A DNA stretch of 64,000 bases from Cymbomonas tetramitiformis (lineage: Eukaryota > Chlorophyta > Pyramimonadophyceae > Pyramimonadales > Pyramimonadaceae). This document shows, piece by piece, positions 9,406 to 42,266 of this stretch (positions are counted from its first letter, which is position 1; each line of letters begins with the position of its first letter). A model generated the notes under the pieces. The model worked only from the letters and a program-made list of their open reading frames with translations. It did no database searches and was not told where the DNA came from. The stretch is from assembly GCA_001247695.2 (NCBI GenBank), contig LGRX02025776.1:62001-126000 (forward strand), in the 5' to 3' direction. Position numbers and translations under genes: made by a program.

Positions 9406-10769
9406 ACCACCTCCGCAGGTGCGGGCTCTCCCGCCGCGGGGCTCCCCGTGATTGGGGGCGGAGCGACTACCACCTCCGCCGGTGCGGGCTCTCCCTCCGC
9501 GGGACCCTTTGCGATTGCGGCATCCTCCACGACCACCTCCGCAGGTGCGGGCTCTCCCGCCGCGGGGCTCCCCGTGATTGGGGGCGGAGCCAACACCACC
9601 TCCGCCGGTGCGGGCTCTCCCGCCGCGAGAACCTCCGTGCTCGCGGGGGCGGGAGCGTCCGCGGGTTGCTCCGCTCCCGACGGCGCTTCCACATCCCCCT
9701 CACCAACCTCGGGGGGTGTGGCCGCTTCAAGGGGCGGTGGCCATTGCTTGAGCGCGCCTTCCAGAAGCAGGGCGCCTACTTTTGAGAGCTTCGCAGCGTC
9801 CTTCTCCGCTTGCGAGGTTGGGTAGACCGTGCGCTTCGCCATGCACTCCGGTCTACCACAATTGCTCACCTCCTCGATGCCTTTGCCTAGAAGGCAGACG
9901 TTGTGGTAGCTCGCACCGCAGTGCGAGCACTTGTGTACTCCACGTCCATCGTCCTTCTCGCAGATGAAGCAGCAGTCTTCAGCTGCTGGCGGTGGGGGTG
10001 AGGGCGGAGGAGGCATGTTTCCACCTAATTCATACCACACCAAAACCATGCGCGTTTACACAAGCAGGGTTTCGGGCATTATCCATACGCATGACTATAG
10101 GTTCTACCAACATGTGATTCGAAAAGGTGCTCACCATCTTCATGCCCTGTATAGCATCTATCGTATGCTATTGTCAGGGCATGATCGAAAGCATTCCAAT
10201 CTAAAAATGCTTTCCTCACGGCGGTCTTCGGACCTGGCAGCTCCCCCAGTCGTTTCGTCGCCTCCATGTCGTGCATGTTCACGACAGGGGGCTCCGATCT
10301 TCCTCCGCCAGGCTCCTCCACGCATTCCTCGCGACCGCAGTTGAACAAATCTCTCTTTAGGCCTCTTGCCTCTTGACACTTAGGGTGGTAGCGAATCCCG
10401 CACACCTTGCATCGCGTAACGAAAGCCCCCTTTTGACAATAGCAGCACCTATCTTCTGGCAGTACCTCTTTGCATTCACCACACTGCACCGCCGGATACT
10501 TTTTATTCGCACAGCTAAAGTGAAAGCTCCTATTGCAAACCCTACAAGTCTGCGCTGGAATTAGTTTACTGTCGCATCCAACGACATGGCAGCGGTGGTA
10601 TTCAGGGGCGTTTCGGGGCATTTTCCTTGCACGCGCGTTGTTTCCGCCTCGGTTTCTTGCGGTCATTGCTGTTTCCGAAGTGCTAACCCTAAGAAGTGTT
10701 CTTCAAGAATGGCTTCCGCTCGCTCGCACCAACTAGGGCGCTGAGACGCAGTAACTGTGCATGCATGTG

Positions 10770-11336
10770 TGACGTCAGCTCAGTATAAATCGAGGACAAA
10801 ACCGCCCAAGCATTTCTCGTACGTCGATGGATCCGGGATCGGATCCGACATACGAGAAAAGTTCATGCACGTTTGACGTCAGCTCAGTATAAATCGAGGA
10901 CAAAACCGCCCAAGCATTTCTCGTACGTCGATGGATCTGGGATCGGATCCGACATACGAGAAAAGTTCATGCACGTTTGACGTCAGCTCAGTATAAATCG
11001 AGGACAAAACCGCCCAAGCATTTCTCGTACGTCGATGGATCTGGGATCGGATCCGACATACGAGAAATGTGCATGCGCGTGTGACGTCAGCTCATTATAA
11101 ATCGAGGACAAAACCGCCCAAGCATTTCTCGTACGTCGATGGATCTGGGATCGGATCCGACATACGAGAAATGTGCATGCGCGTGTGACGTCAGCTCATT
11201 ATAAATCGAGGACAAAACCGCCCAAGCATTTCTCGTACGTCGATGGATCTGGGATCGGATCCGACATACGAGAAATGTTCATGCACGTGTCACGTCAGCT
11301 CAGTATGAATCGAGGACAAAACCGCCCAAGCATTTC
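10770..11336 (+). promoter_or_regulatory. Six tandem 104-bp repeats with CRE-like site, TATA-like box and hairpin
   Basis: The word TGACGTCA begins at 10770, 10874, 10978, 11082 and 11186 and, as TCACGTCA, at 11290: exactly 104 bp apart. In copies 1-5 it is followed about 10 bp later by a TATAAATCGAGGAC block; in the last copy this is TATGAAT. The five complete units also carry an imperfect inverted repeat with arms TTTCTCGTACGTCG and CGACATACGAGAAA around a GGATC-rich centre. TGACGTCA is the full consensus for CREB/bZIP-type factors. The array lies between the start codon of the minus accessory gene (10666) and the plus transposase gene, so it is probably a multi-copy promoter or operator. 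The TATA-like box points toward the transposase. Confidence 0.75.
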
Positions 11337-11496
11337 GTGGAAGTAAGTATGTGAAAATGCTTGCAGAGAAAGACAAACTTGTATATATTACTATGGATAT
11401 GCATACGCGATATGTCTTGGAATCGGAGAAAACGGTGTAGGAGGGCGCGAATATGGGTGGCAGCACGAAGCGGCGCCCCAATCCCACAAGCTTTAA

Positions 11497-12035
11497 CCCC
11501 TAATCTGCGACGTGATGAGCTATCTCATCAAACACTCAAATCTGAGTTTCTCTGCGACATGTAACTCAAATTCACTTTTGAAGACAGTTCTGAAAAGCTC
11601 TCAGCAAGCCGCATGCAATCGTGCACTTATGAGCAACCAAGCTGTCTTGATGCTCTTGATATTCTTCGAGACGCGCTCCATTTTAACTTGGCCCTACTGG
11701 GTTACATCTAGGGCACATGTGCAGTAGTGTTACAACCCCCTAATACTCTAAATAGCCCTAACCACATGTTGGATACTTGGTAAAATTACATCCGGAAGTC
11801 TAGGGTCAATATTAGGGCTTAGGTTGTTAACAATGTGCACATACATCAACATTGTTCGGTTGATAATCACGTCGCCGGTATCAATTGTCGTGCATTTCAA
11901 ACCTGCGTATGCGATTTGCCTTGCGAAGACCTTTCCGACACTGTTTTCAAAAGTTGAGTTAGGACCGTTATGCAAAAGTTATCGTAGATAAACCTAACTT
12001 TTCAAAAACCCAAAATTCCTTTCGCAGATTAGGGG
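11497..12035. mobile_element. TTAA-flanked MITE
   Basis: TTAACCCCTAATCTGCGA (11493-11510) and its exact reverse complement (12022-12039) bracket 539 bp. Reading TTAA as the target duplication leaves a 14-bp inverted end CCCCTAATCTGCGA, the arrangement of piggyBac-type and some other TTAA-specific transposons. There is no coding frame of note. It sits between the 104-bp array and the transposase gene, so it may displace or modify that promoter. Confidence 0.7.
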
Positions 12036-12096
12036 TTAACGGTATGAATAACTACACCCCGAAACGTGTGTACAAAAGACATGTGATTGTGCTGCT

Positions 12097-15000
12097 GTGA
12101 GACTTCGCGTTAAGGAAGGGTTTACGTGTGTCTTACTAGATTGTTTGGTGACAGGGACGCATATCGGGGAAGGGTTATTGAACGTCACGCTCGTGCGGGA
12201 TCAACGATCGTGGCTATTTGGGGTGTTATGTACGACTCTCCACATTACGCTGCTTGCAGTGAGCGTTTTTTTGGCGTTGTGTGGCTCCGACGCTGCCTAC
12301 AATCCGGGACCGAATTGGGATATTCCTCCCGTTCTTATAGACTTGTTACCCCTTCTCGTAGAGGTTGGAGATTCCGCTCGCATTATACCTCTTGGAGTGT
12401 GGCCCCTGAAAGATGATGATATGGATACGCTTGAGACGTTGGTGGGGAAGATAGATTTGTTGTGCGAGGCCTGGACATCAGCAAAAGGACAAGGTGATGT
12501 TAATCACGCTCACTCAGAGGAGGTTTGGGACGATGTGGAAATGTCAGACGAGTTGGAAGGTGGGCATGAGGAAACTTACGAACGTCCTAGAGGTCAATTG
12601 CCGCAAGTAAGTGACGGTTTTGAGGAGTTGACGCGCGGGAATAAGGGGTGGTGGGTCGAGAAGATGCGAACGGCATTTGGGAGAAGCCCTCACCGCATTG
12701 CGGGTGCGGTGAGGGCGTATATCGAGTCCCTTCCGGCGGGCTTGAGTTCGAAGGTGCACAAGGAGTGCAATGCGGCATTGGTGTCGTTAGGTGACCGGCG
12801 CGAGGAGACAGTGAAGAATTGTGTTGTGGCGAATTTGAGGGACGCGTTATCACGCTTAGCACGACGAAACACACGTGCGAACGTTAGTCTAACGAGGGGG
12901 ATAGCGGCTGCGCGGCATTTGGGAGCAACTTGGCCGAGGATAACTTGGTGCGTACGGCTTGCACGATGCTTGGTGTGCATCAACGCGTTGGAACGCTTGG
13001 GGTGGTCGGAAATTCAAACTTGAGGGAGGGGGCACACATGGGAACTGCGGAGAGAGGGCGTCGTGGCCTTTGGGAGGGCGTGATGCTTGCGGAACGGAGA
13101 TTGTCTACCCGATGCTTGACAATGGCGACTTGTGCTCTTATTAGAGCTTTTTGGTTGCACCCGGACAACACTCGAGTTAGTCCTTGCAAAAAGGACGTCG
13201 TGTTGGCACGTGACCCCAACACTGGTGCTTTGAGAACACCGAGGGAGTTCGTGAGCAACCATTGGTTGGAAGCCTCTCAACTAGTAATATATAGGAGGTT
13301 TCAAGCCAAGTACCCCGCTCTCAAGATTGGGCAACGTTCCTTTGAGAAGCAAGGGGTGTGCAAGCCGCACAATGTTGTGCGGCTGCGAAGGAAGGACAAC
13401 ATATCTTGTTGCTGTAGGTACCACGAAGACATGAGAATGGTCCTTGAGGGCTTTGACAAGGCCCGAGAGGCGGTGCATTCACCATGTGCGTGCACTTCGG
13501 CGACATGTTGCCCACGGGTTCGAAGGAGCGACACCTGAGCATAGGCGAAAGGCGGTGGGGAACACGGGAATGGTTTGCACTATTGCAAAGGCGGGGAGGT
13601 CGACATCAACTTTCGCCGAGAGCTTGTTGTGTCCGCGGGGGGGGGATAAGCATGCCATGGAGTGCTTGAGAGGGAGGTGCGAGAAGTGTGGCGGCTTGGC
13701 CAACTTCAAAGTGTGTGACAGTGAGGTGCAGCATGAGGCGCAAGTGCCGTGGTCTTGTTACGAGACTTGCGGCACAGGACAGATGGACGAGGATGGTAAG
13801 GAGATTCGGCGACTGCAGTTTGTGCAGAAGAAGACGAAGCTGGCCGCCTTGATCGCCAAGTTGCAGGCGCTGTTGCTGGGGCACGAGCCGGGGGCTTCGC
13901 CAAACTGTCAGTGCAAGGGGAACTTCTTAGTGACCGCAGGGCAACCGGAGGCATGGGCGTGGAAGAAGTTGGAAGGCTGCGGGGATTGCGCGTTTCTGCG
14001 GCCATATGCATATCACACTTTCATGGCATTACACCAGCAGCGGCAGTTTCAGACGTGCGTCAGGGATTTGCCACTGGGACATGCGGTGTTCTTGTTTGAC
14101 TTCTCGGAGAATCATTCATTGAACATTCCTCGAGAAGTGCAAAGTCTGCATTGGGCGGTGAAGCAGGCGACCATATTAGTCTGCGTGGTGTGGAGACATG
14201 CGTGTATGGCCGTGGATGGGGTGGAATCAACCGCGGAGAACCCAGTGCTGGTGAAGGATTACGTGTACTTGTTGAGCGATGACCGGAAGCACGATCACCG
14301 CTTCATTCAGCACATGCGGGAGTTGATCATCAGAGACTACTTCATCGGGAGGGGGATCGCAAAGCCCTTGTTTATCCACGAGTGGGCAGATGGTTGTGCG
14401 GGACAAAATAAGTGCGCGGCAGGGTTTGCGGATGTGGCGAATAGCAAATACGAGTGGTCATTAGGTGTACCTTGCCAACGGAACTTCTTTGAGACGGCGC
14501 ATGCCAAGGGGGAGCAGGATGGGGCGGGGGCGCATGTCAAGCACGCAGCGGCGGTGGCGGTCATATCAGAGGGTGACAAGTGGTATGCCCGCATCAATTG
14601 CGCTGCAGACCTGCATGCGTTCTGTTGCGAGAGATTGAGCCGACGTGCGGATAGCAGTTACGCCAAGGCAAGAGCGAGCTTCAATCAACGGTTTTTTACT
14701 TGGTACCAGAGGACGCACTGCACGAGGAGGCGGGAGGATTGCATGCGGTGGATCACAATGCTGGTGCAGCATACCAGGCGGTGGATGGGACGCAGCGCTT
14801 GCATTCTGTAAGGGGGGGGGAGGGCGAGGGGAAGTTGATGGTACGTGAGCGTACATGCTATTGTGTGAATTGTTATGCGGAGTGTGTGCGCTCCATTCCG
14901 GACTCGGAGGGATGCTTGGAGACGTCCCACGGGGATGCGTGGAGAGATGTGGAGTTGCGGCCGGCTACGGGCGCGGCCGCCGTGAGGATTCGCGGCATGG

Positions 15001-15368
15001 TGGAGGAGTATGCGGCGGGTGTGAGTGTAGCCGTGCGGCGTGGTAGCATCATGGCGGTGAAGAAGGATCCTACGGACGCATCACATGCCTACTACTTGGT
15101 GAAGGCGCTGTCGGGTGTCACGGAGGTCGGCGGGAGGATCCGCCGTGATGACTATAGACAGACATTTGCTCCTGGAGACTCGGTGATTTCGGGGAGATAC
15201 TTTGAGTGGGCGGATCCAAACGTGCGAGATACATACACCTTAGATACTAGCAAGAAGTGCTTGATTCCGTGTGAAGCCGTACTAGCATGTGATGTTCGCC
15301 TAGTTAAGAGGGGGGATGTGCACATGCTACCCCTGAGGGAGCATCAGCGGTTGTTGGCACTTCTGTGA
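12097..15368 (+). pseudogene. DDE-like transposase of element 1, frameshifted
   Basis: Coding character passes through four overlapping frames: 12097-13023, 12930-13538, 13444-14811 and 14700-15368. Apparent single-base shifts fall near 12925, 13515 and 14695 (the last in a T6 run). The middle part has a CKPHNVV..CCCRYHEDM block. The catalytic-type core lies in the third segment: FDFSENH (Asp about 14098), EWADGCAGQNK (Asp about 14389) and FFETAHAKGEQDGAGAH (Glu about 14491), a D-x96-D-x33-E arrangement. A Cys-rich tail with RTCYCVNCYAEC follows. DDE transposases cut and join element ends. The family appears related to eukaryotic proteins with a DGxxxQxK..HGKGxxDGxG signature, but I cannot name the superfamily. 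The start is uncertain because the first frame opens at a non-ATG codon. It could be a true pseudogene or carry consensus errors. Confidence 0.65.
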
Positions 15369-15444
15369 GATTCTAGTGTTATGTAGATGTATATATTGTA
15401 TATATTGTAGATACGGCCATGTTGCGGTGTATATTGTTATGACT

Positions 15445-16403
15445 TGTACATACTTCGAATAAGTTCTCCGTATCACGTGCTACATCTCACGCACCCGCAA
15501 TATATGCAATTTCTGCTTTGCAGCCCTTTTTACAGACGAAATTAGCTCCCCAGCACCCCGTGAATGTGACCCGATGTGAAATTTCGCTTCTCATTGCCTA
15601 GGTATGACCTCTAAATACTTCTCACAACTTCTAATAACTTCACCGTATCACGTGCAACATCTCACGCGCCCACGAGACATGCATTTTCTGTTGTTGCAGT
15701 CAGTTTACAGACGAAATTAGCCCCCCAACGCCCCGTGAATGTGACCCGATGTGAAATATCACTTCTCGATGCCTAGTAATAACTTCTAGATACTTCTCAC
15801 AACTTCTAATAACTTCACAGTATCATTTGCATATCTCACGCGCCCACGAGACATGCATTTTCTGTTTTGCAGTCAGTTTACAGACGAAATTAGCTCCCCA
15901 ACGCCCCGCGAATGTGACCCGATGTGAAATATCACTTCTCGATGCCTAGTAATAACTTGTAGATACTTCTCATAAATTCTAATAACTTCACCGTATCATT
16001 TGCATATCTCACGCGCCCACGAGACATGCATTTTCTGTTGTTGCAGTCAGTTTACAGACGAAATTAGCTCCCCAACGCCCCGCGAATGTGACCCGATGTG
16101 AAATATCACTGCTCGATGCCTAGTAATAACTTCTAGATACTTCTCACAACTTCTAATAACTTCACCGTATCATTTGCATATCTCACGCGCCCACGAGACA
16201 TGCATATCCTGCTCCGCGGCCCATCTGCGACTTGTATAGCAGCCCTGTGGCCACAATAATTATCGAAAATGCAAAATATTGCATTCGGATGATTTCTTAT
16301 AACTTCTAACATGTTCTTGAAACTTCTTGCGACTTCTTAATGCCATTTTCATTGATTATGCAATTTATAGTGCAAGCCCGTCCACCTAGCCGTGCTACAT
16401 GCC
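15445..16403. repeat. Right inverted end of element 1 (four to five ~173-bp units)
   Basis: Inverted copies of the left-end unit: TTACAGACGAAATTAGC recurs at about 15530, 15708, 15882 and 16053, each followed by CCGTGAATGTGACCC or CCGCGAATGTGACCC and CTCACGCGCCCACGAGACATG. The outermost 200 bp mirrors 4673-4860, including the CAGCCCTGTGGCCAC block, and ends in CCTAGCCGTGCTACATGCC. This end has one more repeat unit than the left end. Confidence 0.85.
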
Positions 16404-16615
16404 AGATGCGCCAGTCTAGTGACCACGCCGCTGCCGCCGCTGAAAACCCCCAGATGCGTCGTGGTGTGGGGGACGAAAAGCGGTTGCCGGCTCTGTCGTG
16501 CCTGCCCCGCTAGGTTGCCAAACTCGTCGGCCGCTGACTCGCTCCCAGCAGGTCCTGCACAATGCGCGCTGAGTGAAGGCGCGCCAGAGAAATGTAGCTG
16601 GCGGAGTTCCGGCTT

Positions 16616-20999: not shown

Positions 21000-21349
21000 C
21001 CCTATAAGTGCACTAAATTAATCTAAACGCACACTAAATTAGGCTACTAAACCGACCTCCCCCAAACTTCAAATGCACCCTAAACACACTATTCGATGAA
21101 AATGATATTCTCATGTGAAAATGATATTGCCTTATTTACCTCATGATAGGATTAAAAAGCCGCATTTTAACAGTCAAGAACATGCAAGTGCAGGTTGTGC
21201 ATTAGATTTAATGGTTTTTATGGTACAAAATTGAGGTCAAATGCACTTTTTCGAAATCTAGGAGGAGTGAAAACACAAAGAACTTTTGACTCAGAATCTA
21301 TATACACGTTATACACATATTATTTACATGTTTTTTTTCCCGTCTTGCT

Positions 21350-24300
21350 TTACGCGTCCACTTCAGGTGCTACCGCTACCGCTACGCAATTGTCAAAAGC
21401 TTCGTCTTCATCGGAATCATCCGATTCATTCAAGTCACCTAGGTCCTTGCGCGTGCGTTTGGATTGTTGTGCAAGCAAAGCGACGACTATCTGCGCGTAT
21501 TGCTCGTTCGGTATACTCCGTTCGGGGTCTTTCGCATCCACATTCCATGCCAGCACTATTTCATTCTTATCGAAAGTCTCGGTAGACGGTCGGTGCCCCG
21601 GTGGCGCTGCGAAAGCTCCTGGGTGACTCGCAAGCTGCTTGCCGAGGTGCTTCTTCTTGGTGTCGGTGTGCTTTTTGGGTTGGAAATAGCGATATAGCAG
21701 CTGTTGAGTTGACGGATAGCGCGCCTCCACCTTCACCAAGTACAACGGATCCGACCATTCGCTTCGCTTCAGTTGTACGCGGAAAGCGAACTTGTCGTTT
21801 TCAGATTCCACCGCGAGAGCCACTGCAAAGCTGCCGACTGTCATCTGGCCGTAGGTGACCTCCCACTGGGCGTTGTCCACGTACTGCTCTGCTCGCTTTT
21901 GGGCTCGACCTTGGTGTTTCCGTTTACCGTTGTACACTTCTATCGGCGCTCGATCAATTCGGCGTTGGATGCGCACCGGTATAGCGGGGACGGCGGCAGC
22001 CCCGGCAGCTTCTATCGCCAACGCGGGCGCCTCTATCAGTCGAACCAAGGTGGCATTGCGCTCGATGGCCATTTTCTCGGGATGCTGGAAGGGTATCGCG
22101 GGCGCTTGACATTCTCCACCAGCAGTTAGGTGGCGCTGTTTCTCGATGACATCCTCGCGCCAAAACTTTTCGTGCACCTCCGTGAGCTTTGTGCCCAAAA
22201 TGTCCTTCAACGCCTGTAAGGTATGCTCACGCTTTTCGATGCCTTCTTCGGTAAAAGGAATCGGCTTGATGTATCCAGGCCCCGCGACAGGGGGTGTAGA
22301 AACAAGCTTTGGCAATGGAGTCTCGGGTAACCATTTTGGTGAAATGGAATACTGTTTGTACTGCATGCCCACTTCGCCGTGCTCGTTCTTCTTGAACTTG
22401 AAAGCCTGCTGTGCCAAAATATTGTGGCAATCGAAGACGTGACCATCAAACCAAGAGGTGAAGTCGAAGATCTTCTCGGTGTGCTCGCACGTTACACCAT
22501 CCGTAAAGCATTCTTATGCGACCTCTATCATCTCGTCGAGCGTCCAAGCTTGCTTGCGTCGTAGACGCACGGAGAAGCGTGAAAACATCTGGTCAATGTT
22601 CTTGTGCGTATGTCCCACCAACAGAAAGTTGAGTTTCACCTGGCGAAAGACGTCCGTGTGAACCAGCCAAGCTGCGTATGCCAACATCAACTTGCTCTTG
22701 TTGGTGCTCACATTGTCAAGCTGTACATACAATACTTCCGGCATTGGGTATGAATTTTCCCCGTCCCCGTTGCGTCGATGCTCTTGAATGCGGAGGATAT
22801 CCCGGTGCAAAACGTTGACAAGGAAGTTCGCATCGTCCTTGAAGTTGGCGTAGTTGAAATCCATGAAGCGGCCCACTTTCTCGATCATGCTCCCCATGTT
22901 GTGCACGTCAAGGAAGTCCTTAGAGTCCAGATGTTTAGGGATACGTCGAAAGTGTGGCAGTCGGGTGGTCCACTGCGTCATGCCATCGATGATCACCGAG
23001 GCATACTTATGCCAAGTTTTGTTCATGGCAATGCTCTTGGTCATATTCGCTTTACGACCATGTTTGTAGAACTTCTGGCGCTCCGCTCGTGCGATTGCCA
23101 GATGTTTGTTGAGAGGCCCGTTGTATTGCGCTGTACAAGGTACACAAATTCGGGTCAGTGAACAAATTACATAAGCATATAAACACATCACAAAGCTATT
23201 CAAGAATATTCACCTTTTTGAGATTTGGTTAAGCCTTTCTTCAATAACTTGAAGGACGCGCAAACATCGCACTGAGAAAATCGGTTCACCGATGGAATCT
23301 TGAGCCAAGAGCTGCAATCTTCGTCAAATACTTTGTAGAAGTAACTGAGAGAGATCTTTTTGCTCTCCTCATTCTCACGCAAGCCCTCGATGTACTCGTC
23401 CCACAGCTCTTCGATGGTCAAACCATCCGAAAGGTGAATCTCGGCTTTGTCAGGTTGGGGTTGTCCGTATTCGTCGGCGTATTTCTTGATCCATGCGACG
23501 ACCGACTCGCGTTTCAAGGAAATCTTGTGGTTGTTCTCCTCGTACGTCAATCCATGAACAAACGTGTGTCGGCCCTCGAGCACGCGTGTCCGACAGTCGT
23601 GAAGATACCCGTAGCTGATGCCGTAAGCCATATAGTAGAACTTAAAGCACACCTGTTACAAAACAAAAGACACCGTCACTCAAAAATAATTAACAAATTA
23701 TCCAAGGAAACGCATAAGGGTTTTTATAGGTTGGCTGGATCTAAGACGCTTGGGAGACACCCCCAGCACTGCACGTCTGCAGGCGGGACGGCCGTCGCGT
23801 GCTCGTCAGCACTCTCCAAACCACGCCTTAAATCTGCGCAACCTACACCCTTAGTGGGAATCGAACCCACGAGTGCGAGGTTCATAGCCTAGCGCCGTAC
23901 CAACTCGACCAACGCGTCGCGAATGTACTTTATGAAATTTATTTAGAAATTTATGATACAATATTCCACATTCCTGTGATGACATTACACAATCTATCAC
24001 AAGGTCCAAGAAAAATTTCGCTTTGGCCAGAGGCCGTTCATTAGCTAATGAACGGTTCCCGCAGCCAAAGTGTCTAATTGTGAGTCGCGCTTTGGCCAGA
24101 GGCCGTTCATTAGCTAATGAACGGTTCCCGCAGCCAAAGTGTCTAATTGTGAGTCGCGCTTTGGCCAGAGGCCGTTCATTAGCTAATGAACGGTTCCCGC
24201 AGCCAAAGTGTCTATTGTGAGTCGCGCTTTGGCCAGAGGCCGTTCATTAGCTAATGAACGGTTCCCGCAGCCAAAGTGTCTAATTGTGAGTCGCGCTTTG

Positions 24301-25341
24301 GCCAGAGGCCGTTCATTAGCTAATGAACGGTTCCCGCAGCCAAAGTGTCTAATTGTGAGTCGCGCTTTGGCCAGAGGCCGTTCATTAGCTAATGAACGGT
24401 TCCCGCAGCCAAAGTGTCTAATTGTGAGTCGCGCTTTGGCCAGAGGCCGTTCATTAGCTAATGAACGGTTCCCGCAGCCAAAGTGTCTAATTGTGAGTCG
24501 CGCTTTGGCCAGAGGCCGTTCATTAGCTAATGAACGGTTCCCGCAGCCAAAGTGTCTAATTGTGAGTCGCGCTTTGGCCAAAGGCCGTTCATTAGCTAAT
24601 GAACGAGTTCAAAAATAAACATACCTGCTTCTTGGCCAAAAAGTATTTGAAGTCGAACTTGTCCTCAGATCGAAAGCTGTTTTTTAGCAAGTCCTTCACG
24701 AAGTATTCCTTCCTATCTTTTTGCGACATGCTGAAAATATTTTCGCGAAAAGACTGAATATCTGCGGATGAGAAAGATAGACAGCAGTGCGACTTGCAAT
24801 TGCACTTAATGGTTTCTGCCATTGATATACTGTCAGCCTGCAAACGTCGCTGCTTAATACTAATTACGCCCGTATATTGTTTCTTGCGTATGTCGGATTC
24901 GTACGGTTTGCGCACGACAATCTGCTTGTTTACTTCACCATTTAAACAAACAAGAGGGTCTTCATTCCTCAAGTCCAAACTTGTCTCTGAAAATTCTGTA
25001 TCAAGTCTGCTTTTTATCTCTTGTAAGTCAATTTCGCGCAAAGCGCGTGACCCGGAAACGCGTGAAGAATTAGAGCTAACTTCCGATCTACACGTCAAAG
25101 GCGCGTTCCAAAGGACCAATTGCGTATTTGCGCTCGGGGCTGTGCTTGGAATTGGCTCATGAATGAAAAAGTCAGCCCCTATTTCCATAGAATCTTCAAT
25201 AACTATTCTCGGGCACGGTTTGCAGATAATCTCGCAACCTTCATCGAAAGGAATAGAAAACATATTTTCGTCAAAATTAGCCGTCATTAGCTTATGAAGC
25301 CGTTTTTTACGTTCTGAAAATGATATGGACTTGCGAGTCAA
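21350..25341 (-). CDS. Transposase-like protein (DUF7869-like), three exons
   Basis: Exon 1 is 25341-24625, exon 2 is 23652-23214 and exon 3 is 23130-21350. Both introns have GT..AG ends and keep phase, giving 979 codons. Exon 1 has a charged N-terminus and CNCKSHCC. Exon 2 has VCFKFYYMAYGISYG and a FSQCDVCASF Cys pair. Exon 3 has YVQLDNVSTNKSK and GHTHKNIDQMFSRFS, the D..N and GHTH..D..FS signature I associate with the DUF7869 group of transposon-linked proteins, thought to be RNase-H-like. The C-terminal third is Lys-rich and ends in acidic DESDDSDEDEAFDN. One in-frame TAA at 22514-22516 splits exon 3 (nonsense change, error or unrecognised intron). No ATG opens exon 1, so an upstream exon may exist. 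Intron 1 (24624-23653) carries the palindrome array and a tRNA-like repeat. Function in transposition is inferred. Confidence 0.6.
23700..23925 (-). repeat. tRNA-derived SINE-like repeat in an intron
   Basis: On the minus strand, 23920-23841 resembles a tRNA. It has a box A-like TGGTCGAGTTGGTACGG, a perfect box B GGTTCGATTCC (23867-23857) and a perfect five-base T stem around it. The acceptor stem does not pair and the anticodon stem has a mismatch, so it is not a working tRNA. About 140 bp of unrelated body follows toward 23700. A tRNA head plus a body is the plan of a SINE. A degenerate tRNA is the alternative. Confidence 0.5.
24020..24606. repeat. Palindrome array A: nine 69-bp repeats
   Basis: Nine nearly identical units. 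Palindrome cores start at 24036, 24105, 24174, 24242, 24311, 24380, 24449, 24518 and 24587 (69 bp apart, once 68). Each unit centres on the 20-bp palindrome CGTTCATTAGCTAATGAACG, extended by one more C/G pair. An outer inverted pair CTTTGGC..GCCAAAG gives each unit a second stem. The array lies in intron 1 of the minus transposase-like gene, close to its 5' splice site. The open frames across it arise because 69 is a multiple of three. Confidence 0.95.
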
Positions 25342-25611
25342 CCGAGAATTTCTATCTTACTAAATCGATCGATCCTCGATTTCAGCGCAAATGACACCAG
25401 GATATCTTAAAATCATATCCTTGATCTGAACAGACCGAATCAGGAAGCGACAGCAAATGTCATTTTTGATTAAAATTGTCATCGATATTTGACATGTTAT
25501 TTTCAGCCGCCAGAAATGACTTTTGATATTCTGCTAAAGTTACATCACTTATTCAATGTTCTTTCACACACACCCCTTTCACAGTTGACAGCCAATTTCT
25601 CTCATTTCGCA
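25342..25611. promoter_or_regulatory. Shared intergenic region of the two divergent element 2 genes
   Basis: About 270 bp separates the 5' part of the minus gene from ATG 25612 of the plus gene. It is AT-rich and contains ATCGATCGATCC and CATCGATATTTG words but no clear TATA box. By position it must hold both promoters unless upstream exons exist. Confidence 0.4.
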
Positions 25612-28600
25612 ATGGCGACAGCAGAAACATTTCAAGCACTGAGGGCTCAACATATTTTCCAGCTATATCTTGGCAACAAGCGGAGCATTGTTAGAACGCT
25701 TGAAACCGACGATCCTCCAGACACCTTGCAAATAGTGATTCACTCTGATGACCCGAACGAAAAGAATGAAGAAATGATTTACAGTTTTCCTCAGTTTACC
25801 TCTTCGACTGTAGTCGAGGGTAGCCTCCTTCCTGAAAAACGCGTTGCGTACAGTGTCATTGAAAACCAGACTCCAATTCTGTATTTCGTCGCATTCAGGA
25901 ACAAATAGCTTACTGTGATCGAATTGGACAGCGCGAACTTTGAGGAAACCTTGAGCCTTCCAAAGCACACGAATCGGCTTACGGCTTTTCAAAGTTTGAA
26001 AAGTAGGGCAGGAGAAGAAGGAAAAAGTAAGGAATTCTATCTAGCGAGCTATGTAAACACGGCGTGGAAAGCGTCGATTACAGCTCCTTTCTGGCAAAGC
26101 AGGAGGCCAGCGCCAGTGATCGATGACCTCGGACTTGGTGGCGAGATACCTGTTGTACAGCCTACGGTACGTCCCTTTCAAGCCCTGAGCCTGGACCGGG
26201 GCGGAAGGCGTTCATTAGCTAATGAACGCTTTTCGCCTGGAAACGCGCGCCCTGGGCCTGTACCGGGGCGGAAGGCGTTCATTAGCTAATGAACGCTTTC
26301 GGCCTCGAAACGCGCGCCCTGCGCCTGGACCGGGGCGGAAAGCGTTCATTAGCTAATGAACGCTTTCGGCCTCGAAACGCGCGCCCTGCGCCTGGACCGG
26401 GGCGGAAGGCGTTCATTAGCTAATGAACGCTTTCGGCCTCGAAACGCGCGCCCTGAGCCCTGACCGGGGCGGAAAGCGTTCATTAGCTAATGAACGCTTT
26501 CGGCCTCGAAACGCGCGCCCTGCGCCTGGACCGGGGCGGAAGGCGTTCATTAGCTAATGAACGCCTTCCGCCTCGAACCGCGCGCCCTGAGCCCTGACCG
26601 GGGCGGAAGGCGTTCATTAGCTAATGAACGCTTTCGCCTCGAAACGCGCGCCCTGAGCCCTGACCGGGGCGGAAGGCGTTCATTAGCTAATGAACAGTTT
26701 CGTCTTGTCCCAGGCTGCCAGGAGAACGGATGTGCAGCGTGCTGCCGAACGCGCCCTTCAAGGACCTAGTGGCTCCAGAGCGTTTACTGGAGCGGGCGCT
26801 AATGTGGATATGTCTCAAGTGGCCACCCCATCTGAGGCAAGGAAGGCAGCCGAGGTGGCTGCACATGGGTGGCACGCTAAGCTGACAGTGGAGCATGCAG
26901 CAAAGATGGATTATGAGGAGAAAGCAAAGCTGTGCAGGCAAATCGAGATGGAGCACCGGTGGCCGAATCCCATGTCGACCGACGAGGCGGCGGAGCAAGG
27001 GAGTGTGTTTCGTCTCCCCATTGAATGCCTGTACCACGCGACGGGGTACGAGGCCTGCCGGGATCAAGAGAGGGGCTGGGTGAACGAGATCAAGTCCAGC
27101 AGGAAGGAGAACCCGTGGGCCCCTTTCAATGCGGGTCTTGTTGCGATCGACGATGTCAAAACCCGTGCCGAATTCTCCCTGAAAAAAGCTCTCAGGGGAG
27201 AATACAGAGGCAAGGTTTTTGGGCACCAGCACTGTTATCAAGCCACCGACGAGTGTCACCAGGAAATCCCGTTGGAGATAGCCTTCGCGTTCTTCGAGAG
27301 CAAGATCTACATCGGTCTCACGCCTGACATGATTCGGTTCTTAGGCGAGATGCAGAACCAAATCGACCAGAAGACGAAAGGCAAAGACAACACTCAGTTC
27401 ATGCAAGGGCTTCGTTCGACCCTTTTCGAAAAGCATGGGGTCGTGTACAAGGTTTACCGAGAAGCGTTGATCTCCGAGTTCGTCGCCAGCGTCCCCGAGG
27501 ACACCGAACGGGGTACCTCTTATCAACCTGGGTATTACGAGGTCGGAGGGCTGGTGCAAAAAATGGCGGAGTTCGAATCAGAGCATGGATTTTCAGTCCC
27601 GGATCCCGAGAAATATCCCAAGGGATTCCAGTACATCGAGGATGTGGAGACGTCTGAGCGCGAGGGAGACCCTGAGACCCTCCCTGAGGTAGAGGTGACG
27701 GTGAAGACGCTGGACGATGACATCAACGCTCACCTCGATCGGGTCACAAGTTGGTACCCCGTAATGTCTCACTTGAACCAGTCGATGGAGACGCATGTGA
27801 AGGAAGTAGCGATGTCCAAGCATTCTGTGTTCGGCGGCACGCAAATCAACCACTACTTCATGCACTGGACAATTGCCAATTTCCGGCCGCAGACGTGGGA
27901 CCTCTGCGTTAGCATCATGGAGGCTTACAGAAGGTTTGACCTGAAGGGCATGAAAAACCCTTTGGCTTCGAAGACCAAAAAGCGCAAGGCCTCATCTTCG
28001 CCCGCTAAGGGACCCGCCAAGAAAGCTGGCAAAAAGGGCACCTCCAACCGACAGGTAAATTACTTTTTACTTCTGCTTCAAACAGTGTTTACCCCCCCAA
28101 AGCATCCTTTTCTATATTTTAAGACATGCTAAAAATGTTTTTTTACTTACAGATGGAAGACGAGGTGCAACGAGGAGGCGGGGACCACGGAGCGGGCTCG
28201 TCTAAAGGGGCAGGCATTTTGGTGGAAGAAGCTCAGTTTCTCCACAATGCCAAATCCATGGGTATGACGTTCTGGATTAACTTGGGCGGCTTGGCGGGGG
28301 AGGCGGAGTTCGACAAGGTGGACACGTATCTGCGCCTGATTATCAACAAGGAGTTGTCAGTAAAAGAGGGGGGCCAGATGATAAGCCAGTTCAAGAAGGA
28401 ACGCATGGTGCAGAAGCACTTGGTGTCCGCGGCGGGATTGCAAAATTGGGACGAATTCAAGGCCGAGTTCACCCCCTACTGGAGCTCCCAAGAGAAAATC
28501 GAGTCGTTGATCGGCTGCTTACCTTCAACTCAGGGGGGAGCGCGCCGGGGGGGTCTGGGGAAGTTCCGCACGCGATCTTGAATTACGTCGAGAACGCGCG

Positions 28601-29660
28601 GGCGAATCTCAAAGAAGCGCAGGCGCCACGCGCGGCGCACATCCAAGGCTTGCAACAGATCGAGGTGAAAGTCGACATCAAACTCTATCGGGAGGCGCGG
28701 ACCGAGGGGCCGGAGCCTAAGGTTCCAGGAGAGGCAGGCCTTGAGGACGACGAGCCCACACATGAGACGAACGTGCCGATGTTCCCTCGTTGGAAGATCG
28801 TCAAGGGCAGCATGAACGATATGAAGGACGTCCCGAGGCTGCCCTTCACGGGGACGATCGTCGACTGCAATTACGCCCTTGACAAGGAGAAGACTCCCGA
28901 CGCGATGACCAAGGAGGAGGTGCAACCGTTCCTGGAGTCTTTCAACGCCAAGACCACCGCCCCGGCATGGACAGTCGCTATCTTTTGCGGTTTCGTCCAA
29001 CAAAACGATTTCCTGGAGGTGATTGACAATTACTGCTCCGGCCGCGCGGAGCGGTTCTTCTGGCACAAGCAGAACGTGAACATGAACCCCAACAAGACCG
29101 TACGCTACAATGACGTTGAATGTGGCGTCCTGGGGTACCATGTAAAGAGCGATGCCCAGGGGGAGTCTTCTAAAAAGCCGGAGTGGATGTTCAACTTTGA
29201 TTTTGGAGAAGGTGAACGTGTGAGCCGCGCGTCACTTTTGCGCGGCTTCCCGGTTGTGCACCGGATGTTCAAACGCGACAGCAAAGTCGTGAATAACCAT
29301 CAGAAACCCCAAGCTCTGTTGATGGAGCTGATCCAGTGCCACATGCTCGGTGACAATCCGGGCAAGAAGGATGAGAACGGCCATCCACTCAACTGGATTC
29401 TCGACGCTTGCTGCGGCGTCGGCTCGACGTCCATGGCCGCCATGAGGTGTGGTATGAACGCGATCGGCTTCGACCACGACCAGTACATGGTCAGCTCTGC
29501 GCAGCAACGGCTGATCAATTTCGACGCCGAGCCCGATCAGCATGCCGAGTTGAAGCCCAAATCGAAGTGCGAACCGACGGCGAAGGGGAAGGAAGCAGCC
29601 ACTGCCGAATCTGAGGAAGAAGACTTAGATGAAGATGAGGAAGATGAGAATGATGAATAA
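25612..29660 (+). CDS. Large element 2 protein with C-terminal DNA amino-methyltransferase-like domain
   Basis: Exon 1 runs from ATG 25612 to 26166 with one in-frame TAG at 25906-25908. An intron with array B (26167-26713) leads to exon 2 (26714-28054), a region without known domain and a Lys-rich end (KKAGKKGTSNRQ). A second intron (28055-28152) leads to exon 3. A -1 shift is needed between about 28520 and 28560 to enter the frame that ends at 29660. The last part follows the beta-group amino-methyltransferase order: VDCNYAL in place of DPPY (28863), WHKQNVNMNPNKTVRYND, HQKPQALLMELI, then LDACCGVGSTSMAA (AdoMet-binding motif I, 29403). An acidic tail closes the protein. Known relatives methylate adenine N6 or cytosine N4 in DNA. 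Here Asp and Tyr of the catalytic motif remain but both prolines are lost, so activity is doubtful. Confidence 0.6.
26196..26697. repeat. Palindrome array B: eight 67-bp repeats
   Basis: Cores start at 26210, 26277, 26344, 26411, 26478, 26545, 26612 and 26678 (67 bp apart, last step 66). Each contains the same 20-bp palindrome as array A, CGTTCATTAGCTAATGAACG, here extended by G/C and sometimes AA/TT. The surrounding unit (GGACCGGGGCGGAA, CTCGAAACGCGCGCCCTG) shares nothing evident with array A. The array sits in the first intron of the plus gene, a position matching array A in the opposite gene. Confidence 0.95.
28523..28556 (+). promoter_or_regulatory. Possible -1 frameshift site (two G-run slippery heptamers)
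   Basis: In the reading frame of exon 3, two heptamers fit X-XXY-YYZ: G GGG GGA at about 28531 and G GGG GGT at about 28546. The coding continuation to the methyltransferase-like domain lies in the -1 frame. A base-count error in either G run would explain the same break, and that is the simpler reading. Confidence 0.3.
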
Positions 29661-30198
29661 AATAGTAGGATTTGTCGACCGCCCTGACTGATAGTATCAG
29701 TCAAGCCTCGACGGTATAGGGTGAAAAGTACTCTACTCGTAAACATTTGAATAAAGAATGATACATGTATGCATATTTCGGTGTTTTCATTGTACGCATA
29801 CTGCACTTTTCTACCGTGTTGCCTTTACAGTAAGTCGCGGTCTACAAGAAATTGTATCTACAAGAAACTAGCCGCTAGATTTTGTCACATTACCGTTGAG
29901 TTGTTATGAAAATGTTGTCTTAAATATGGAAAATTAATTAAGCGACCAGCGCTACCGAAAATTTACCTTTTTCTTATAGACCGCGCCTTACTGTATGTAT
30001 CCCTATTTCGCGCATAAATATCACTAAACCCTGATTTTTATGAAATATATATAAATCCAAAAATGACATATGATAATGTCATTTTCATCGAATAGTGTGT
30101 TCCTAACATAATTAGTGTACAAACAAAATTTAGTGTGCAATTTGGATCTCATTAGGGTAAGATAGGACTGCATCGCCTAAAAGGGGGGGAGAGTTGTA

Positions 30199-31951: not shown

Positions 31952-33740
31952 TGGAATTCAGAATAGGAATTAATTACAGCGTCTGTCATCCGATGACATC
32001 TCGCGATATCGAACTGAAGGGTGATGACGTCCAGCAGTCACTCACTGACACAAGCGCATGCGTTGACTTTCCGAGGAAGCAACCAAGTGCTGCGCACCAA
32101 CAATTAGTACTCACAATTTTCTCAACGTTCCTTCGCCTTGTGGGGCGGCCGGTGCTGTGACTGTTGTAAATATGCGCAGGGATTGTTTGAATGCTCGACG
32201 GTTTTTTATTTTTCAGTTTGATTATGTTGATATTTAAGCTCACGATATTGGGTGTGCGCAGTGTGTGTCGCAGGTATTCCGATGGATGCCGAGGAGGGAC
32301 GCGTTCTTTTGAGGTGTGGAAGTCTAGGGCAACCTAGCTTGGGATGAGACCCAACCGCATCGGACTCGTGGTCACTTGCCCATTTAGTCACCTTGAATAT
32401 GTACGCAAAGTTTGAGGAGCAACGACCTAGGATAAGGCATCGGCTGTTTTATTTTTATGGGTTTGTGGCTAATCCGCGACCTCTTGAGGTGTGGAAGTCG
32501 AGGTTGGTGTATGCCAACCTTGCTTGGGCTCAACCCCAACCACATCGGACTCGTGGTCACTTGTCAATATGGTCACCTTGAATATGTACGCAAAGTTTGA
32601 GGAGCATCGACTTATGATAAGGCATTGGCTGTTATATTTTTATGGGTTTGTGGCTAATTCGCGACCTCTTGAGGTGTGGAAGTCGAGGTTGGTGTATGCC
32701 AACCTTGCTTGGGCTCAAACCCAACCCCATCGAACTCATATTGTTATCTTTATTGTAGCTTCACGCAAAGTAGCTTATGCAAAGTTGCGTCTTATGATGT
32801 TAGGATTATAGTCTTAGGTTGAATTCGTTTTTGGGTTCATGGAAAATTCATACACTCCAATCATCTTTGCTTACTTACATACCTTAAGCTTTACGCAACC
32901 TGCGGCTTCGTCGTTGTGTGTATCAATAAAAATATGTCCAAGCAATACAACTACCAAGTTTGAGGTGTATTGCGTGGATACAAGGCAATGGCTGAATTTA
33001 TTTTTGGGTTCGAAGTTAACTTCAAACCCAAAAAAGAAATCAGCCTAAGACCCATCCAAACTTCAACAAAATACACGATACATGGCAGTGAAGTTAAAAA
33101 AGTGTGAATGAGGTGAGTCCGATGTGGTTGGGGTTGAGCCCAAGCAAGGTTGGCATACACCAACCTCGACTTCCACACCTCAAGAGGTCGCGGATTAGCC
33201 ACAAACCCATAAAAATAAAACAGCCGATGCCTTATCCTAAGTCGTTGCTCCTCAAACGTTGCGTACATATTCAAGGTGACTAAATGGGCAAATGACCACG
33301 AGTCCGATGCGGTTGGGTTTCATCCCAAGCTAGGTTGCCCTAGACTTCCACACCTCAAAAGAACGCGTCCCTCCTCGGCATCCATTGGAATACCTGCGAC
33401 ACACACTGCGCACACCCATTATCGTGAGCTTAAATATCAACATAAACAAACTGAAAAATAACAAACCGTCGAGCATTCAAACAATCCCTGCGCATATTTA
33501 CAATAGTCAAAGCACCGGCCGCCCCACAAGGCGAAGGAACGTTGAGAAAATTGTGAGCACTAATTGTTGGTGCGCAGCACTTAGTTGCTTCCTCAGAAAG
33601 TCAACGCATGCGATACTTGTGTCACAGTCGAGTGTCGCTTGTGTCAGTGAGTGACTGCTGGACGTCATCACCCTTCAGTTCGATATCGCGAGATGTCATC
33701 GGATGACAGACGCTGTAATTAATTCCTATTCTGAATTCCA
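31952..33740. mobile_element. Inverted-repeat (foldback) element, arms ~0.6 kb
   Basis: 31,952-32,560 reads as the reverse complement of about 33,110-33,740 with scattered differences. Matching blocks include the GAATTCAGAATAGGAATTAATTAC end, GATGACATCTCGCGATATCG and CTTCGCCTTGTGGGGCGGCCG. Within the left side a ~186-bp segment with ATGTACGCAAAGTTTGAGGA and GTGTATGCCAACCTTGC is repeated. The outer left end may extend into the N gap. No transposase frame is present, so it would be non-autonomous. Confidence 0.8.
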
Positions 33741-34926: not shown

Positions 34927-37619
34927 TTATCTGAATAGTTTGTGCAGTAAAGTGGTGAGTTTGGGCCAACCTGAGAGCATGAAGGAACTAGGCCCCCCAT
35001 GCAAGACAAACTGACCTCCACTTCGAAAACGCATCTGCCTCCTTGCCTCTGCCATCCTCTGTTCACGCTCACGTCTAATCTTCTCCTGTGGCAGGCAAAT
35101 GGTGGAATAGTATGAAAAGCCATGCAGAGGATAACTCCAAGATTTAGTCCAGACTCGGCTCAAATAGAAATGTAATATCGATTGTATCCTGCTTATATCA
35201 TGAGGAACTTGCCCATAAAGAGAGACTCACCCGCTGTTTGCTGGAGATGTAAAGGCCGTTTCGTTCCCTTGAATGTGCTCCAGGTATGAGATTGTTGCGG
35301 TAAGGAAGCTTCAGCCACTCAAGATCAATTCCGCCGTACGTGCCGTACCAGCCGTGCGAGATTCCATCTCCAGGAACCAAATCAATCTTCTCTCCAAATC
35401 GTTTCATGCGCACGTCTATGTAGGATGCGAAGAAACTGGCGCAACGGAATTGTTTGATGAAGTGCACACACGTGCGCTCAACATCGTAACCCAGATAAGC
35501 CGTTGCCAACTGAAAATCCACTCCCTGCAACGTTACCAAACCTCTTGATGAGTGGGAGGACATCGAGAAGGGTGTTGTCCGACTGCTACTTTCGTGTTGA
35601 TAATGTTATAAGAAAAGAACAGTGATTGAAGAAGGGACATAAAGGGTCGTACCTTGCTGGATTGTACACGATCCTGATTTCGCTCCAACAGAATCTCCCA
35701 GCGGCGTTTGTATATACTAAAGTCATCGGGTATAGCAATGCCCCACTTTGGTAGATTGGAGTGCAAAAACAGAACAGACTGAGGATCCAAAGAGGCTCTA
35801 TCTGGGCGATGCTGAACCATCGTATTCCCAAAATAGCTGGGGTTTCCCTCCGAATCTAGTCGTCGCATCATCCCCGCACTTCCAACAGGCCAATTTACCT
35901 GATGGACTTTGACCCCTAAAACCATATGGGCGAGGGCAAAAGTCTCTTTGTCACCCTGCAACCCCAAATATTTGCCACTGTGAGTCCCAAGGCAGCGCCT
36001 GGAAAAAGCGTTTCGTCAGGATCGATGTGAACGAGAGCGACCTAAGAGCGAACTTCCGAAATAAAAACGCTAACAAGCGAGAGCACGGCAGGCTTCGAGA
36101 GCCCGACTGCCTGCAAACAAGGGTGCAGCAGCGTTTAGAAAGCTTGCACACGGGAGAAATCATCACTACCTGACCGAGATAATCTGTCAGCAGAGGATAG
36201 TATAGACTCGCTTGCATATTGAAGAAGAGCGCTAACAAGAGCGGCCTCCAGTTCCGCCTTTTGTTTACTACCATCTGCCCGCTCTCATGCGTGCCGGTTG
36301 GCCCGTCCTTCGGGGCCAGTTCCACGATCTCAAAGAAGTCAGGGGAGATGCTGCAGTTCCAATAGTCTGGCCAGAAAATCTGCACCAGTAGGCATAGCGA
36401 GCAGCATCTTTTCAGACCCAAAACAGCCTTCCACTCAGCAGGCCGTGAAAGAGCTAAACCCCAAGGAATCGCCACAGGAGCACTTAGGAAGGGTTGCTCG
36501 AAACGCACCGCGCCGGTCTGCTTGTACTGCGGGGTGTCGAAGAGAAACTCCGGGTCGAGTACGGAGACGATGTCTGCGTCGAGGAAGATAACCTCCTGGA
36601 AACGGCTCAGAAGCAGGGCCGCCGCTTTGATCCGGTAGCTTGTGAACACCGAGGTGCTGCCACCGGGGTAAACATCCTCTAGATTCCGGCTGATGACCCC
36701 GTGGTCGGCCAACGCTTGAACCATGGTCGGAGGAGGGTACTCATGTGCGAGAAACCACAGCTCAACCGGCAGCGTGCAGCCATTCCGCCGGAGCATGAGA
36801 ATGTTCACCCAGGCAGCGATCATATGTTGCAGCCCCCCTCCGCAAATCACGATGCCCTTTCCTTTGAACATGTCGGGGGGGAACTCCGGCGCATTGTCTA
36901 AGAACTTCTTCCACTGATTCCGCGCGAATTCCACGTCGGATGGTAAGAGTCGGTTGCCCTCTTCCACGAAGTCCTCCCCGAGTTGCGTCCTGCAGAGCCA
37001 GGAGCGCACGGCAGGGATGAACGTCGGAATTGCTATGCTCCGATAGGCGCGCAAGAGAGCTCCCAAAGGAGAATATTGACCCCAGGAGGTATTCTCTCTT
37101 GGCAAATCTTCTGTCACCAAGAGAGGAAACTGTACACACGACACGGCGAGCAAACAAGATGAGGGGCGAAAGCACAAAAGACGTGAACAAGTACAGTGTG
37201 GGCAGATGCCAGCGTATTTGCACGTTCCCCGAGCTGGCCTGTCGTGGTGCGCACCTTAACCCAGGTGGCTCTACAACATTCAGGCCGTCGGCGGCAAGGT
37301 AGGCGGCGTCGATTTCACGCCACAGCCAGCCGACCTGAAACTGAGCTGGATCGAGGAACTCCGACTGAGGGATTTTCTGGCGCGCCCTCTGCGAGGCCCG
37401 CGCCACGACCCGGCCGTCCCCGTTGGAGCCGGTCTCCGTTTCAGTGACGTCTTCGGGGGTCGAGAAAGATAATTCAGGCCATTGCAAGGCATCAGTGTCG
37501 CCCTCCTGGCGACTAGCGCACTTGATTCCTTCAGGCTTCCGTAGTGCAGTGCTCGGGCCGCTAATTGCGAGCTTGGCGCATTCTTCGATACACCTGAAGC
37601 AATATGACCGAGCTTGCAT
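34927..37619 (-). CDS. Alpha-mannosyltransferase, GT71 (MNN1/MNN2-like), six exons
   Basis: Proposed exons: 37619-37275 (start least certain), 37129-36509, 36379-36170, 35955-35653, 35524-35231 and 35085-34927. All introns are GT-AG and phase 0, about 128-214 bp, giving about 643 residues. The sequence shows the GT71 fold signature: GKGIVICGGGLQHMIAAWVNI, ELWFLAHEYPP, FQEVIFLDADIVSVLDPE (DxD-type motif), a GAIFWPDYW-type junction across intron 2, ESGQMVVNKRRNWRPLLLAL and GDKETFALAHMVLG. Known family members add mannose from GDP-mannose to glycans in the Golgi. Intron 2 (36508-36380) is 129 bp and in frame, so retention would insert 43 residues. No N-terminal membrane anchor is visible in the chosen exon 1, so an upstream exon may be missing. 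It lies among mobile elements but looks intact and host-like. Confidence 0.8.
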
Positions 37620-41498: not shown

Positions 41499-41792
41499 TG
41501 CTGGATTTGGCACGCCGACAGTGTCATCATCATCTGTGTCATCACCGATACGGTTCGACTACTATGACTTCTTCACTGTCATCAGCGCCATCTCCGATAT
41601 CGACTTCGGTAGTCAGACAGTTCATAGCATCTGTCATTTCACATCTGACACCTTAGGGGCTGTCATCACATTCTTTCGGCGGAAGCTATAACACTTCGTA
41701 TTATCTTGTGTATAGCTTCACAGTTTCACGGTTGACATATGTGAGCGTTGCACACTTGACTTGTAGTGCTTGACTGCGTGTTTGTTCTCACA
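41499..41792 (+). repeat. 5' LTR of C1
   Basis: 294 bp, TG..CA, rich in TGTCATC motifs. Matches the 3' LTR at all but one base by eye. Confidence 0.95.
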
Positions 41793-42266
41793 GGTTTGCG
41801 CCCACCACCGGCCTAAGGTGGTTTGTTAGAACCGCCAATTATGGCTGGCTAAAGCTCTTATAGGGGCTTGGGGCTGAGATCCGGGCATGAGGTTCTAAAC
41901 GCACTAGTCACGGAAGGGGTAGAGTGAGAGAGAGGATGAATTTCCGTTCGTGAGCACAATTGCCTAGGACTCAGGCGGACCGGTCTAGCTAGCCGCAGCC
42001 TCCGAAGCAGTACGCGCGTCATCACCAAGCCTCACGACACGATCGCCACCCTCTCTTACCCTACCCTTCTCCGCGGCTGTAAAATTTGAACCTTTGAACC
42101 CGCATTTTGAGCCCCTGCCCTTATTTTTTATAGATTGTTCAAGTGTAAATTTGTTTTCTCTTGCTGAGATCCTTTTAGTACGATTTTTAGAACCTTGATC
42201 ACCGAACATTTTGATTTATTGGATTTTCTAGACTAACGTTCGATCACCGCGACTGTAAATTTCAAC

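Follow-up and report, generated by a model that had tools for sequence, protein, structure and literature searches.

A DUF7869 DNA transposon of Cymbomonas tetramitiformis with palindrome arrays in the first introns of its two divergent genes, and related families with differing palindromes

We analyzed a 64,000-nt stretch of the genome of the green alga Cymbomonas tetramitiformis (contig LGRX02025776.1, positions 62,001 to 126,000; hereafter the window), which contains a complete DNA transposon with two divergent genes, one for a DUF7869 protein on the minus strand and one for a protein with a DNA-methylase fold on the plus strand. The first intron of each gene carries a tandem array of one and the same 20-bp palindrome, and arrays at the same introns recur in related transposon families, in part with a different palindrome. 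As far as sequence comparison goes, the result across the families designated B, C and F (the window copy belonging to family A) is a new finding. We propose, at a probability of about one half, that the palindrome is the binding site of a symmetric dimer, probably encoded by the element, and that the family-specific arrays set the state of the element.

With up to 3 mismatches allowed, the window has 17 sites for the 20-mer CGTTCATTAGCTAATGAACG, 16 of them exact and one with 1 mismatch. In 100 dinucleotide shuffles of the window the mean is 0.01 sites, and none reaches 17. Nine exact sites are located at 24035-24605 and eight (seven exact, the last with one mismatch) at 26209-26696, all within predicted introns with GT...AG ends. 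The period is 69 bp in the first array (one spacing is 68) and 67 bp in the second (one spacing is 66). The spacers of the two family A arrays have no recognisable relation to each other (z = 1.3), which rules out wholesale copying of one array into the other. An initial sequence-only reading of the window had placed nine copies of the palindrome, in 69-bp units, in the minus gene's intron 1 and eight, in 67-bp units, in the first intron of the plus gene, with unrelated unit flanks and an origin other than the copying of one array as a whole, and in these respects it is borne out. Its further statement that only the palindrome is conserved needs a slight amendment, since in both arrays the spacer ends form further complementary arms round the core. 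The genes, arrays and intergenic features are as follows.

21350-23130, minus strand: transposase exon 3, which encodes the DUF7869 domain and is interrupted in the window copy by a TAA in frame at 22516-22514
23214-23652, minus strand: transposase exon 2, with identity of 73% to family B and 82% to family C
23653-24624, minus strand: predicted transposase intron 1, with GTATG...ACAG ends; the flanking exons are conserved in families B and C
24019-24610: array 1, 69 bp x 8.6 units with 9 exact palindromes, in transposase intron 1; the first palindrome lies 19 nt past the 5' splice site
24625-25287, minus strand: transposase exon 1; families A, B, C and F have in common here a cysteine cluster of the type C-x-C...C-C
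25283-25298: degenerate single palindrome over the transposase start codon, with 2 mismatches in 16; a similar site is present in families B and C, and a half of it (TTCATAAG) in family F
25288-25611: stretch between the divergent genes, a putative promoter, with terminal-repeat-like motifs AAATGA/TCATTT
25612-26166, plus strand: exon 1 of the methylase-like gene; over 97 residues it is 38% identical to family C (E 1e-18), and the window copy has a TAG in frame at 25906-25908
26167-26713, plus strand: predicted intron 1 of the methylase-like gene, with GTACG...CCCAG ends and almost wholly array
26182-26702: array 2, in the same intron: 67 bp x 7.8 units, in which seven of the eight palindromes are exact; 17 nt separate the last palindrome from the 3' splice site
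26714-28054, plus strand: exon 2 of the methylase-like gene, a domain without a Pfam match; identity 50% in family B and 76% in family C over 156 residues
28153-29660, plus strand: exon 3 of the methylase-like gene, with the methylase fold and the S-adenosylmethionine (AdoMet) motif LDACCGVGSTS; frame change near 28,550 in the window copy

The minus-strand protein, which we read as the putative transposase, matches the PF25273 (DUF7869) profile at 118.6 bits (22514-23209; cut-off 26) and so belongs to this family; its family B counterpart matches at 164.2 bits. For the second protein, the PF01555 profile of N6/N4 DNA methylases gives 24.0 bits in the window copy, under the curated cut-off of 26.7, and 33.1 and 31.9 bits in the family B homologues, over the cut-off; the homologues P0001, P0005 and P0010 score under it and P0006 has no match. 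N6/N4 methylases carry the catalytic motif (D/N/S)PP(Y/F/W). This motif is absent from the ten aligned proteins, which have D-(G/C/S)-(N/M/V)-Y at the place where it would likely stand. Among 17 homologues of the methylase-like protein retrieved by search, 13 are named Cymbomonas tetramitiformis. A PDB profile search gave two matches, neither of them significant (E 0.24 and 0.36). Both genes are broken in the window copy by two in-frame stops and one frame change. In the genome both proteins have many matches, and numerous copies keep frames of 500-990 residues open; the copy numbers are minimum values. An alternative genetic code was ruled out, as the in-frame stops vary (TAA and TAG here, TGA in another element) and many copies have open frames. 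No known RNA or tRNA was detected in the window (no Rfam match at the gathering score and no ARAGORN gene); by eye, a tRNA-like stretch at 23830-23925, in transposase intron 1 beside the array and without an ARAGORN call, is perhaps a short interspersed element.

Family C, read on contig C6839, is 76% identical to the window copy in the second protein (156 fetched residues of exon 2) and 63, 82 and 89% identical in transposase exons 1-3 (exon 3 over 437 residues). Its transposase intron contains four 68-bp units with GGTTCATTAGCTAATGAACG, and its second-gene intron contains seven exact copies of the family A 20-mer and one ending in A, in 67-bp units; families A and C have one palindrome in common. 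Family B comprises copies on C17208 and C818, which were reached via the diverged homologue P0013 and are 98% identical to each other. Identity to the window copy is 50-54% for the second protein (exons 2 and 3) and 42, 73 and 74% for transposase exons 1-3. The arrays of family B occupy the same two introns, and its palindrome has the form GTATCATT(AGCT or GGCC)AATGATAC. The second-gene intron holds five exact GTATCATTAGCTAATGATAC per copy and one more ending in A. The transposase intron holds three and four exact GTATCATTGGCCAATGATAC in the two copies, together with one AGCT form per copy (exact in C17208, with one mismatch in C818), and in C17208 an additional GGCC form with one mismatch.

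P0041, with 242 matches, led to family F, of which a single copy was read, on C20381. In transposase exon 1 this copy shares 33% identity with the window (E 8e-24), and exon 1 of its divergent gene is related to exons 1 of families B and C (z 6.5 and 9.3). The palindrome of this family is CTCATTAGGTTAATGAG; the transposase intron contains a 92-bp x 5.5 array with GCTCATTAGGTTAATGAGC, and one CTCATTAGGCTAATGAG is present in the ~143 bases read of the second-gene intron, which cover the intron start only. Across the families the half-site TCATT-R-G recurs, while the outer bases, centre, period and spacers vary. The outer bases agree between both introns of family B and differ from those of family A (GTA...TAC in B versus CGT...ACG in A).

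The C. tetramitiformis genome (851,713,466 bases searched in 25,745 contigs) contains 9,729 exact palindrome sites and none of the backward-read pattern. The 50 sites listed fall on five contigs (C23, C39, C62, C70 and C111), and element sequence adjoins the array on all five; these six copies, selected for their palindrome, cover 50 of 9,729 sites and form a biased sample. One of these copies, on C70, has the second-gene array and lacks the transposase intron, because its element similarity begins only at the position corresponding to 24632. Among seven loci picked by protein instead of palindrome, five have arrays, and three of these were seen fully in both introns. The two loci without a palindrome in the stretch fetched, on C715 and C22804, are fragmentary. 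A degenerate methylase fragment on C22804 has near it (1865-2060 of locus L055) a 73-bp tandem repeat in which ATCGAT is surrounded by an imperfect palindrome; this repeat may represent the array of a further family. A rearranged copy on C23417 retains the second-gene array, and contig ends truncate two copies (L011 and L012). In 40 further loci (L013-L052) the core was found in none, but these loci were counted as uninformative, since they either begin past the array or derive from the opposite side. The exact palindrome is absent from genome_contigs and from the viral contigs; the viral contigs also yield 3 pattern matches, with no confirmed relative of the methylase-like protein among them, and a viral origin was rejected.

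These data also bear on the proposal of the sequence-only reading that one palindrome is under selection, as a binding site, methylation target or cruciform, and tied to the element. The constraint and the tie are upheld by conservation of the core and by arrays at the same introns in families B, C and F, whereas the notion of one fixed palindrome is not, as B and F have different ones. Arrays apart from the genes, named there as contrary evidence, did not appear among the 50 of 9,729 sites listed; as for element copies without arrays, the other such sign, five of the seven protein-chosen loci carry arrays and the two fragmentary ones show none in the stretch fetched.

Conservation was analyzed in nine loci of families A and C. 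Because units were gathered by their core at ≤5 mismatches, which favours the core, and no control was run, the values are to be read with this bias: in the 67-bp type (63 units, A and C) the core scores 0.977 and the flanks 0.807 and 0.819, and in the 69-bp type (38 units, five loci) the core scores 0.993 and the flanks 0.932 and 0.845. In our judgement, the gap in the 67-bp type exceeds what collection by the core would give. Seven further core hits were left unclassified, five being the degenerate transposase-start site and two being edge units. Ratios of nonsynonymous to synonymous divergence (dN/dS) between A and C are 0.125 for exon 2 of the second gene and 0.079, 0.089 and 0.136 for transposase exons 1-3, which indicates that both genes are under purifying selection between these families. 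Between the window copy and locus L049, dN/dS in exon 3 is 0.72, a value that fits decayed copies and that, taken alone, speaks against strong selection. The synonymous divergence ranges from 0.42 to near saturation and is saturated in second-gene exon 1. Spacers of the same intron are related between A and C (z 6.5 and 3.8); those of the A 67-bp and B 68-bp units also give z 4.3, for which we have no explanation. The number of units per array varies among copies (4-12 found, some arrays being ended by contig borders).

The element is bounded by terminal inverted repeats and 4-bp target duplications, as follows.

21083-30101: complete DNA transposon of family A, with a total length of 9,019 bp that includes the small later insertion; aligned end to end with the C23 and C62 copies, and at the right end also with C111
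21083-21117, plus strand: left terminal inverted repeat, 35 nt, beginning AACACACTATTCG, 91% complementary to the right end
30067-30101, minus strand: right terminal inverted repeat, complementary to the left end
21079-21082: left target site duplication CCTA, equal to 30102-30105
30102-30105: right target site duplication CCTA
29827-29994: small later insertion with inverted ends, resembling a miniature inverted-repeat transposable element; outside the element plan and absent from C23, C62 and C111

Family A elements have the ends AACACACTATTCG...CGAATAGTGTGTT, with target duplications CTGT in the C23 copy and CACC in the C62 copy; family B has the ends AACACGCTATTCGCAGAAAATGACATTATCA and the duplications TGCG and GGTA. 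The terminal repeats of A and B are nearly the same, whereas their palindromes differ. The motif AAATGA/TCATTT, which forms part of the terminal repeats, occurs at 5 sites between the genes in A (25288-25613; shuffle mean 0.38, maximum 4 in 500 shuffles) and at 2 and 5 sites in B and C (shuffle maxima 3 and 3; means across A, B and C 0.34-0.38), so that the 2 sites of family B stay within its shuffle maximum of 3. The transposase probably recognises this motif and its longer terminal form, AAATGAYAT. Since the palindrome changed from A to B and the ends hardly did, we would place the palindrome with a separate binder, first the methylase-fold protein; the transposase is the second candidate.

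In the proposed mechanism, the arrays would act as dense binding platforms on both sides of the shared promoter, ~0.7-0.9 kb from it, with a weak single site over the transposase start codon, and the palindrome would be a second, separate address beside the terminal motif of the transposase. Binding would determine, in a way particular to each family, how the element is expressed or what its chromatin state is, as self-activation against silencing or as self-limitation. Binder and sites would change together, so that each family answers chiefly to its own protein, and arrays would expand and contract while the core stays constant. The even odds that we give to this dimer-binding reading are based on arrays that families A, B and C have in both introns and family F in its transposase intron, with a first palindrome in its other intron; on outer bases that agree within B and differ from A, and a centre that stays self-complementary when it changes; on the near-constant terminal repeats of A and B beside their differing palindromes, and the AAATGA/TCATTT sites between the genes; on a core conserved above its flanks despite an A-C synonymous divergence of ≥0.42, next to unrelated A spacers and genes under purifying selection; and on the degenerate site over the start codon of the transposase in these three families, A, B and C, along with the VANC precedent considered below, which by analogy points the same way.

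The best rival, a serious one although we hold it unlikely, is control at the RNA level, in which intron hairpins near splice sites would be bound by an element protein or processed to small RNAs and thereby affect splicing or RNA interference. It agrees with the location of the arrays in introns, close to a splice site in each case (5' in the transposase gene, 3' in the second gene), with folding of whole arrays better than shuffles (z -17.9 and -20.8), and with a U-G pair in the sense strand of the family F unit stem. Complementarity of the spacer ends exceeds shuffles in six main array types (p 0.010, 0.025, 0/1000, 0.046, 0.003 and 0.043), and in two further unit variants p is 0.082 and 0.188. 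The sequence of these arms differs from array to array, the arms being mutually unrelated, and their presence suggests either a structural component, as a cruciform or an RNA hairpin, or a mutational mechanism that perfects palindromes; the RNA explanation gains from them (p ≤0.046 in the main types, though 0.08 and 0.19 in the variants). Single units fold with weaker z values (-1.7 to -5.0), and it is the core sequence that is kept, not the stem alone. Moreover, the swap of AGCT for GGCC in the centre, the would-be loop, leaves it self-complementary, as a dimer on DNA would demand and a hairpin loop would not.

Sites of a host factor, taken up by the element as enhancers, are a less probable explanation. 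Homeodomain-type proteins, for example, have a TAAT core, and TAAT lies within the shared half-site TCATTAG/CTAATGA that recurs across families; a common host factor would, however, not require outer bases and a centre that vary by family and yet agree between the two introns of one family. The least probable of the explanations considered is mutational self-maintenance, by which cruciform-extruding palindromes amplify and template switching corrects them, so that arrays would persist in perfect form without a function. Varying unit numbers (4-12 per array, some contig-cut) and complementary arms of unrelated sequence around the cores fit this idea, but it gives no account of the same 20 bases in the two arrays of family A, 1.6 kb apart with unrelated spacers, and leaves unexplained the shared outer bases of family B, the same intron positions in diverged families and the degenerate transposase-start site.

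Several observations count against binding by a dimer. The extra arms are superfluous for a binding site. In family F the centre is odd, with one extra base, and the transposase-intron copy is imperfect (GGT), which a rigid dimer would tolerate poorly. Co-change of the palindrome with a particular protein region does not emerge from the comparison of A and C, which have the same core though their second-gene exons 1 are only 38% identical, and no DNA-binding domain of known type was found in the first exon of either element protein. The longer motif AAATGAYAT occurs between the genes 2, 0 and 2 times in A, B and C.

A wider proposal, which we advance tentatively and consider possible but doubtful, is that a clade of DUF7869 transposons in this alga evolved self-addressing control independently of the VANDAL elements of Arabidopsis, with a methylase-fold dimer lacking the catalytic motif that would read a private palindrome, the two co-diverging without cross-control between families. 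If this is true, several families coexist in one nucleus, each with its private palindrome in both first introns, and a methylase-like protein without a catalytic motif would acquire a role. How related selfish elements share a genome and yet keep their controls apart is an open question, and to our knowledge there is one well-studied example of such separate controls, in Arabidopsis. Because each copy has two independent arrays and several families occur in one genome, the turnover of the motifs, the dynamics of the arrays and the specificity of the binder can be traced by sequence, and the description given here is a first anatomy for DUF7869 elements.

Other features were observed elsewhere in the window. 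Just beyond the transposon, at 31952-33740, there is a large inverted repeat with arms of ~600 bp that are 94% alike and contain 185-bp tandem parts. Another element, at 4672-16404, has inverted ends of ~740 bp (82% alike) holding 173/174-bp tandem arrays; between its divergent open frames lies a 104-bp x 5.6 array (10756-11336), the unit of which includes the inverted repeat TTTCTCGTA...TACGAGAAA, so that a parallel plan is possible. By eye from the proteins, a copia-type retrotransposon is located at 41499-50996, whose direct end repeats of 294 bp share 99.7% identity, and a copia-type frame of ~2,800 residues at 55387-63798, with a single TGA interruption at 59404-59406. A piece of a putative mannosyltransferase gene lies at 35951-37255 on the minus strand (PF11051, E 4e-32).

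Abundant repeats and nanopore data are reported for this alga, and the main text of that paper contains no word starting with palindrom (PMC10675990). In the accessible portions of the open-licence literature on transposons, palindromes, tandem repeats, introns, methyltransferases and Cymbomonas, we found no description of a paired plan of intron palindrome arrays, and no open-licence paper naming DUF7869 was found.

In maize En/Spm, subterminal repeats are bound by TnpA. VANDALs are Mutator-like, whereas the present element belongs to DUF7869. Like En/Spm, it has arrays of short sites within the element, there bound by an element protein that controls expression; the En/Spm sites, however, are near the ends and serve transposition, and here the arrays lie in two first introns. 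With Sola2, compared by these features only, it has in common terminal inverted repeats and 4-bp target duplications, but the duplications reported for Sola2 are AT-rich, in contrast to CCTA, CTGT, CACC, TGCG and GGTA in five copies of families A and B (PMC3627910). Viral mariner elements are likewise DNA transposons with a methyltransferase-like protein beside the transposase, although they belong to another transposase superfamily and have other methyltransferase types, and no palindrome arrays are described for them in the part of the paper available (PMC3627910). The nearest precedent in print, judged by analogy, is the VANDAL/VANC system of Arabidopsis, in which a motif in tandem repeats, located in introns and other non-coding parts and differing between families, is bound by the element's own anti-silencing protein (PMC5735166, PMC10398659). 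The VANC21 motif is a 9-base non-palindromic YAGTATTAY, in contrast to the ~20-bp palindrome described here, and VANC binding and demethylation have been demonstrated, whereas a binder of the present palindrome is proposed from sequence (PMC5735166, PMC10398659). Both systems combine a second element-encoded protein with a short motif repeated in tandem in non-coding parts, including introns, that turns over rapidly and is specific to the family (PMC5735166, PMC10398659); here, tandem short-motif repeats in non-coding parts are likewise present, and the motif differs between families A/C, B and F.

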